From: Spirochaetota bacterium
Lineage (GTDB): Bacteria; Spirochaetota; UBA4802; JAFGJZ01
Reading direction: 5' to 3'
Assembly (NCBI GenBank): GCA_029554345.1
Contig: JAKPJF010000021.1
Location: forward strand, 1 to 46,187
Length of the DNA: 46,187 nt
Shown here: piece by piece, positions 41,890 through 42,869 of the stretch
How the letters are laid out: each line of letters starts with the position of its first letter
Position numbering within the stretch: the stretch's first letter is position 1
Position numbers and translations under genes: made by a program
Notes under the pieces: generated by a model
Databases searched by the model: none
The model's input: the letters and a program-made list of their open reading frames with translations, nothing else
What the model was told of the DNA's origin: nothing

Positions 41890-42378
41890 TTAAGAAAGCG
41901 CCGGTCCGACAATCACGCATTCGAAATCTTTCTCGTTATATTTGACTTTAACAAATGATCCCTTGCTGTATTTTGGAATATCTAATATCGAAACAGTCTG
42001 CTGTGCTTCAGAAGTAAAGGGCATTAGATTTTCGGGATAAACTTTCAGGCTGAAATCAAGAACCGGGTTTTCGTTGATTCTTGTTCCGGATTCTCTAACC
42101 GAAAGAATTTCAGCACGGGCTTCCTTGCCCTTTGACATAAGTGAATAATTTTTTAAACTGCCGGCAACAAGAGAAGCAAACATCAGACCAAGGAATAGTA
42201 TGAGAAAAAAGACAGCGATAAAAAAGGGCCAGCAGTAAAGAAGTAATTCTGAAACAGTTACGGGTTCTTTTGCTCCGAGAGCAATAAGCCAGACTGCTCC
42301 GAAAATTCCGAACAGGCAAAGAAGTAAAAACGAGCGGCTGCTGATTCTGTTTATTTTCTTTATTGTCGCGCGTTTCAC
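41890..42378 (-). CDS. DUF3592-like membrane protein
   Basis: The protein is 162 residues. Two TM helices (about 17-35 and 48-72) are followed by an OB-like soluble domain (GKEARAEILSVRESGTR, LDFSLKVYP, KGSFVKVKYNEKDFECVIV). This is the pattern of DUF3592 and related two-TM proteins. The start is GTG with a strong GAGGAGG. Role unknown. Confidence 0.6.
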   Translation of the reverse strand: MKRATIKKINRISSRSFLLLCLFGIFGAVWLIALGAKEPVTVSELLLYCWPFFIAVFFLILFLGLMFASLVAGSLKNYSLMSKGKEARAEILSVRESGTRINENPVLDFSLKVYPENLMPFTSEAQQTVSILDIPKYSKGSFVKVKYNEKDFECVIVGPALS

Positions 42379-42482
42379 GGATGCCTCCTCAAGTTTGGTT
42401 CTAATAAAAAAAATGCTGATTAATCTGAATTTCTAAATGTTTTAATTTATTTGTCAATGAAAAGAGTTATTGATGTCGCAAG

Positions 42483-42727
42483 CAAAGGCTTCGCCTTTGT
42501 GATTCGTTGTTTGCATGGATCATGCAATAATATTCAAAGGGCGTTCCTCGCCCTTTACCTGGTTTTCGCATGGTCTCATGCGATAAGATCAAAAGGGACC
42601 GGGCTTCAATCGCCAGCCCCGCCCCTTTTGAAATCCCCGCCCGCTCTTTGTCGCGACAGAACTATCGCGCATTACTTCGTAATGGCTGCGATAGTCTGCG
42701 CTGAAGATGTGTCCGACTTCATCGGAC
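42483..42727. repeat. Tandem hairpin array with covarying stems
   Basis: Seven hairpins lie head to tail in 245 bases: 42483-42499, 42511-42527, 42536-42556, 42566-42583, 42591-42629, 42662-42694 (nested inner stem 42670-42684) and 42711-42727. The first four are two repeat units of an A-hairpin (CAAAGGC-type), a roughly 10-base linker and a B-hairpin (T[T/C]GCATG loop CATGC[A/G]A), then ATAA and AAAGGG. It lies in the non-coding gap between divergent genes, which extends over 42379-42955. Confidence 0.7.
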
Positions 42728-42786
42728 GATTTAGGTGTTCTTGATATAATTGATTTTTTGCTTAAGCATAAAATGAATGAGAGATA

Positions 42787-42869
42787 GCCCTCTCCCGGGA
42801 AAGGTTTTTTTTTGGCTTTGCCAGTTAGAATTTCATTTTGGGAGAGGGCACGCGGCAGCGGGGTGAGGG
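42787..42869. repeat. REP-like repeat, copy 2, with an enlarged loop
   Basis: GCCCTCTCCC (42787-42796) and GGGAGAGGGC (42840-42849) are the same arms as in copy 1, but the loop is 43 bases rather than 3, including a T9 run. The tail ACGCGGCAGCGGGGTGAGGG differs from copy 1 by one base. Confidence 0.75.

Follow-up and report, generated by a model that had tools for sequence, protein, structure and literature searches.

The window, which is the whole stretch of DNA analyzed here (46,187 nucleotides, contig JAKPJF010000021.1 of a Spirochaetota bacterium), carries an array of hairpins between two divergent genes that start at 42378 (minus strand) and about 42957 (plus strand), and the array lies upstream of both (Table 1). 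Every hairpin listed in a preliminary description of this DNA, namely two A-B units followed by C, a nested D, and E, was recovered at its position, the alignment of the two A-B units holds as described, and the change from a T-A pair in B1 to a C-G pair in B2 is present. The element is, however, bigger than first described, since it extends rightward into a tail and a further repeat. CAAAGGCTTCGCCTTTG (A1 type) is one of the most frequent hairpins family-wide, and GTCCGACTGCGTCGGAC, a close variant of E, is the most frequent hairpin sequence across copies. A coding role was set aside, as the 97-aa and 113-aa open reading frames (ORFs) spanning the array look like chance.

TABLE 1 Parts of the window copy and of the sequence adjoining it
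Feature	Position	Strand	Sequence or layout	Basis or remark
A1 hairpin	42483..42499	+	CAAAGGC-TTC-GCCTTTG	Sequence and DNA fold
B1 hairpin	42511..42527	+	TTGCATG-GAT-CATGCAA, then linker TAATATTC	Sequence
A2 hairpin	42536..42556	+	AAAGGGCG-TTCCT-CGCCCTTT	Sequence; 30 distinct members with compensatory pairs
B2 hairpin	42566..42583	+	TCGCATG-GTCT-CATGCGA, then linker TAAGATC	Sequence
C hairpin	42590..42630	+	5' purine-rich arm (42590-42605), loop, 3' pyrimidine-rich arm (42615-42630)	Sequence and DNA fold
Third tract	42634..42646	+	TCCCCGCCCGCTC, mirror of the C 3' arm	Potential triplex, of class III on the plus strand and class I on the minus strand
D nested hairpin	42653..42701	+	Outer GCGACAG.., then ACTATCGC/GCGATAGT, inner CATTAC-TTC-GTAATG	z = -4.8
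E hairpin	42711..42727	+	GTCCGA-CTTCA-TCGGAC	Sequence and DNA fold
Conserved tail	42728..42766 (about)	+	TTTAGGTGTTCTTGATATAATTGATTTTTTGC..	Many copies have similar tails
Adjacent repeat	42788..42869	+	CCCTCTCCC (42788-42796) .. GGGAGAGGG (42840-42848) .. GGGTGAGGG (42861-42869)	Resembles the E. coli triplex motif TM_ECO; loops long

Folded as single-stranded DNA, positions 42470 to 42745 gave -63.3 kcal/mol, compared with -35.8 ± 3.8 kcal/mol for shuffled sequences (z = -7.2), and folding as RNA gave z = -5.6, with no shuffle matching the fold of the array as either DNA or RNA. Moreover, perfect stems of at least 7 bp had a density of 5.6 per kb in element copies, whereas 30 kb of the window examined for comparison had 0.4 per kb. 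The adjacent repeat, whose likeness was judged against the TM_ECO consensus of PMC4666352, occurs twice in the window, at 42788-42869 and from 41169 onward, with a first loop of 43 nt in the first copy and a loop of 3 nt in the second, and was also found at L050, L067, L071, L087, and L093.

Genomic distribution of the repeat

As the preliminary description had proposed, the genome was searched for further copies: the array sequence as a blastn query returned 49 matches in its own spirochaete MAG (G000; 3.0 Mb, 96% complete). Another copy as query returned 65 matches in the same genome and 46 in the sister species UR.bin167 (G001; 66% complete), the sole other genus member compared; these counts derive from searches and retrieved loci, and the two genomes sampling the genus are both fragmented MAGs. 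No match at an E value of ≤0.001 was obtained in 37 other genomes belonging to its family or order. The plasmids, phages, and viral contigs searched gave none either, and an origin from such sequences was rejected. Dozens of copies in two congeners and none in the 37 related genomes mean that a lone tandem array is ruled out; the structure reported initially is real, but instead of being private to this site it belongs to a dispersed mosaic family. It represents one of the copies of an interspersed repeat with interchangeable hairpins that is restricted to a little-known spirochaete genus.

The copies sit in intergenic DNA without orientation bias toward genes, the flanking ORFs (from a crude ORF caller) being tandem in the same direction in 18 cases, tandem in the opposite direction in 26, divergent in 13, and convergent in 11. 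At one locus (L024 1400-2900, G000:C34), a two-gene cassette, by eye a MazE/MazF-like toxin-antitoxin pair, lies between two element copies.

Modular organization and comparison with the sister species

Read in one orientation, the copies share a module order, composed of an A/B string, C, a pyrimidine tract, D, E, and the tail. The A hairpins vary in number and include AAAGGC-TTC-GCCTTT, AAAGGGCG-n5-CGCCCTTT, AAAAGGTG-n5-CACCTTTT, and others, alternating either with B hairpins (nnnCATG-n3/4-CATGnnn) or with short GTCCGG-n3-CCGGAC hairpins. The two genomes together hold 88 B hairpins, 79 of them distinct, with an almost invariant central CATG/CATG. The C module has the general form AAAAGGG.., a loop containing TCGCC, and ..CCCTTTT, with 15 distinct intact sequences and 5 main alleles, and the D slot is occupied by several unrelated sequences of similar nested layout. 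Extra hairpins are inserted within the C loop in some copies (L022, L012, L014); the C loops of L054, L061, L070, and L095 contain nested inserts of about 105 to 110 bp with more hairpins (GTGCTCATCGTGAGCAC, TCCAACGCGGACA..TAGCGTTGGA). Dispersed intergenic copies built of palindromic modules in varying combination are the hallmark of bacterial interspersed mosaic repeats, and the array, first said to fit none of the named feature types, fits this one.

Flanking genes were mostly 80 to 92% identical between the two species, and the hairpin bodies at orthologous sites had changed in several ways. At L049/L094, the element is retained (AAAGGCTTCGCCTTT versus AAAGACTTCGTCTTT), with one A hairpin altered in both arms (GGC/GCC to GAC/GTC) alongside several uncompensated changes, and in L094 an 18-bp deletion takes out the C 3' arm. 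L066/L091 have, at the same site, exchanged the D module and differ by the gain or loss of one unit, while L064/L116 and L072/L115 share a gene end and a similar tail with a different hairpin body. At L088/L120, a hairpin chain of about 850 bp in G001 corresponds to about 50 bp in G000, for which gain and loss are both possible. At this single presence/absence site, a terminal inverted repeat of the kind found in MITEs is not clear, and GTTTTTGCATGG is present at both ends of the filled site (L088 1407-2260) and not cleanly in the empty one, a possible trace of a joining event. Since the flank of the window copy was not found in G001, these comparisons concern copies other than that of the window. 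In addition, blocks at L070/L102, L055/L101, and L079/L103 were 98 to 99% identical between the species, where most others were 80 to 92%; this similarity suggests that the blocks were transferred recently or belong to a conserved mobile region.

Covariation of the stems

Covariation was counted with identical rows dropped and with copies treated as independent despite their kinship, so that the numbers overstate independence; on this basis, the 30 distinct A hairpins had 92.9% of cells paired and 24 doubly changed cells, compared with 8.4 ± 3.6 after shuffling, a value reached by 0 of 500 shuffles. Shifting the partner position abolished the signal. The signal was weaker in those B hairpins whose loop is 4 nt long (8 cells versus 4.3 ± 1.5, reached by 11 of 500 shuffles). 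At the B pair to which the preliminary description had drawn attention, T-A occurred in 39, C-G in 21, C.A in 12, and T.G in 4 of the 79 distinct hairpins (Fisher P = 9e-7); the next pair outward (pair 3) had no association, with C.A in 14 of 79. The T-A/C-G change is a genuine family-wide pattern, yet the B stems are not strictly kept. A pseudoknot of the B loop with the downstream linker (GTCT/AGATC, GTGT/ACAC, GAT/ATTC) was also considered and discarded: a linker of 2 nt crossing a 7-bp stem makes for poor sterics, and allele linkage explains the pattern.

As the stems covary above chance in other copies too, the array is not merely a decayed repeat. Free disruption of the stems in relatives, regarded beforehand as evidence against conserved structure, was encountered in part: some stems are broken (the 12 C.A pairs above and the lost C arm of L094), and covariation is still above chance. 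The initial interpretation is therefore supported in part: mere decay is rejected, but covariation alone does not distinguish selection on RNA or DNA structure from template-switch correction, given that template switching at palindromes makes and repairs stems in a single event (PMC8794818).

The C module and its third tract

Every intact C module has a pyrimidine tract after its 3' arm, and in the five C alleles this tract mirrors the arm core, allowing for no more than one gap and one mismatch (arm/tract pairs CCCTGTCCCG/CCCTACCCG, CCCCGCCC/CCCCGCCC, CCCATTCCCG/CCCATCCCG, CCCCGCTCCC/CCCCCTCCC, and CCCTACTCCT/CCCACTCCT). In mirror reading, the combination of each arm with its own tract was the best of 120 permutations, where the attainable P value is at least 1/120, the alleles and the scoring were chosen after the sequences had been seen, and the tracts compared are short and rich in C. 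We rejected the reading in which the third tract repeats the 3' arm directly, allowing alternative Watson-Crick pairing, with 17 of 120 permutations matching the own-allele score versus 1 of 120 for the mirror.

The layout of C is that of a class III intrastrand triplex (class I on the other strand) as defined in PMC4666352. The ITxF limits for classes III and I specify a mirror third tract, a stem of 6 to 15 nt, at most one mismatch, and loops of 1 to 6 nt; in the main alleles the mirror tract of C measures 8 to 10 nt and has no more than one gap, but the 9-nt hairpin loop of C and base interruptions exceed these limits. It is possible, although we hold it doubtful, that selection maintains C as an intrastrand DNA triplex, its arms and mirror tract changing together across alleles. 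If true, such three-strand covariation would be comparative evidence of a triplex in living cells, within a new mobile hairpin-mosaic element.

Mobility genes

The Y1/RAYT transposase (PF01797), whose gene marks the genomes of RAYT-linked REP/BIME systems, had no match in the array's own genome, a MAG 96% complete, versus matches in 5 of 14 controls; REPs apparently without a dedicated transposase exist (PMC3733652). Visual inspection of the window copy gave no evidence of the GTAG tag found at the palindrome foot of REP/BIME, and neither a transposase nor a target-site duplication was identified for the family. A reverse transcriptase (RT) was rejected as the mobilizer, since the own genome has a single group II intron RT and G001 has none, and one such copy provides no link to the family. 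This intron, at L072 (G000:C114), has its domain V at 1721-1795 and its RT ORF (L119) at 389-1699, with repeat-covered hairpin sequence from 1796 onward. Group IIC introns insert at or beside hairpins, and an insertion of this kind, into a hairpin or next to one, may have taken place here.

Nature of the element and alternative explanations

If the array were transcribed as a 5' leader, 3' UTR, or sRNA, its stems could be selected as those of a structured regulatory RNA, a reading which the RNA fold, the covariation of the A hairpins, and the expression of large BOX elements in pneumococcus (PMC3049150) would suit. Loose matches to terminator-like stems numbered two on the plus and two on the minus strand, against a shuffle average of 0.8, and this too speaks for RNA, although a clean T tract is mostly absent, copies occur in all gene contexts, and that of the window sits between two divergent genes rather than at gene 3' ends. 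Against it, the array had no Rfam match at gathering score and E ≤ 1 (only tRNA elsewhere and the group II intron in another locus were matched), no promoter within it scored above shuffle expectation, copies face genes in every orientation (with that of the window upstream of two divergent genes), and module order and content differ at orthologous sites. Moreover, a stranded RNA should favor one wobble type, but among 203 distinct single-mismatch stems, G.T on the reading strand numbered 34 versus 48 for A.C, which is G.T on the other strand (P = 0.15); this symmetry, with no excess of G.U over A.C, favors DNA hairpins. Individual copies may have RNA-level roles, but the array looks like a spreading DNA repeat, unlike a single dedicated regulatory RNA, and we consider the latter improbable. 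Far less credible still is an integron-type cassette array with attC-like recombination sites: hairpin strings do lie between genes and modules are gained and lost, but the modules are non-coding, about 17 to 50 bp long, and scattered over dozens of contigs instead of forming one array.

In our judgment, the array is very probably a copy of a genus-specific, non-coding mosaic repeat that spreads and reshuffles in intergenic DNA and is largely selfish. Direct support comes from the dispersed copies, their common module order, the module swaps, the one presence/absence site, the compensatory changes, the lack of strand and gene-orientation bias, and the absence of Y1 transposase matches from the own genome; the presence/absence site could reflect loss, and transposition proper is no more than a possibility. 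How the stems stay complementary admits two further explanations. There is a substantial chance, somewhat short of even, that covariation is a mutational by-product in which template switching and exchange between copies keep the arms complementary without selection. The mechanism is an established one, and the symmetric mismatch types, the several alleles per hairpin, and the many perfect stems agree with it; however, it would not produce a mirror third tract that tracks the C arms, and the imperfect stems persisting at B pair 3 mean that correction is not efficient everywhere. Alternatively, the B-pair association and the mirror tract may indicate that structure is under selection and that the element is not neutral or selfish. 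Hairpins and intrastrand triplex would then serve the cell as sites of recombination or replication pausing or bind a nucleoid protein, which we regard as rather unlikely. The tracking of the C arms by the mirror tract, the TM-like repeat adjoining the window copy, the greater rearrangement of E. coli triplex loci (PMC4666352), and the nearly invariant CATG core of B are consistent with such a role, whereas the alleles are only five, the P value is no better than 1/120, and TM_ECO has neither an in vivo triplex footprint nor promoter or terminator activity (PMC4666352).

For the spreading mosaic repeat, we propose a mode of action at the DNA level, in which the hairpins would fold once DNA becomes single-stranded, on the lagging strand or following breakage. 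Conserved linkers, CATG cores, and C-rich tracts would be the places where modules are added, deleted, or swapped by recombination or template switching, with recombination between conserved linkers explaining the module swaps, and template-switch correction would keep the stems perfect. The repeat would thus be non-autonomous and rearranged via its own DNA hairpins, with first entry into a new site probably depending on a separate enzyme or on recombination at other hairpins, and effects on neighboring genes, if co-transcribed, would be a side effect. The modules recombine fast enough for sister species to differ at orthologous sites. Because several alleles exist for every hairpin slot, the family lends itself naturally to testing whether palindromes are kept perfect by selection or by template switching, and whether intrastrand triplexes are of consequence in cells.

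Comparison with known repeat systems

By sequence, the repeat is a new family within the collections searched, while its kind is known, namely that of BIME/BOX-like mosaic repeats, which it resembles by design; the spirochaete genus joins the bacteria with such repeats, with an unusually rich module set. BOX repeats are modular, being made of boxA, boxB, and boxC sequences. The BOX, RUP, and SPRITE repeats of Streptococcus pneumoniae are small, structure-forming, interspersed, nearly confined to one species group, and probably parasitic (PMC3049150), and the spirochaete repeat shares their size, structure, dispersal, and narrow host range; it differs in its set of at least five classes of hairpin, each with several alleles, and in its triplex-type module. 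The likeness is one of general design. The REP/BIME elements of enterobacteria and pseudomonads (PMC3733652, PMC2817692) are likewise multicopy mosaic clusters of extragenic palindromes, but they use one palindrome in alternating orientation, whereas the spirochaete repeat alternates several unrelated hairpin types in a genome in which no Y1/RAYT transposase was found. The C module resembles the BoxC, PIT, and TM_ECO triplex motifs (PMC4666352) in its R-Y-Y class III layout (class I on the opposite strand), intergenic position, absence of orientation bias, and unstable loci, but its arms are interrupted by 1 or 2 nonmatching bases, its loops go beyond the ITxF limits, it is embedded in a hairpin string, and it has triplex potential only. 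The double-hairpin elements and palindromic repeats of organelles (PMC7218506, PMC4478555) are also mobile-looking small intergenic hairpin repeats, similar in style although organellar and of other sequences.
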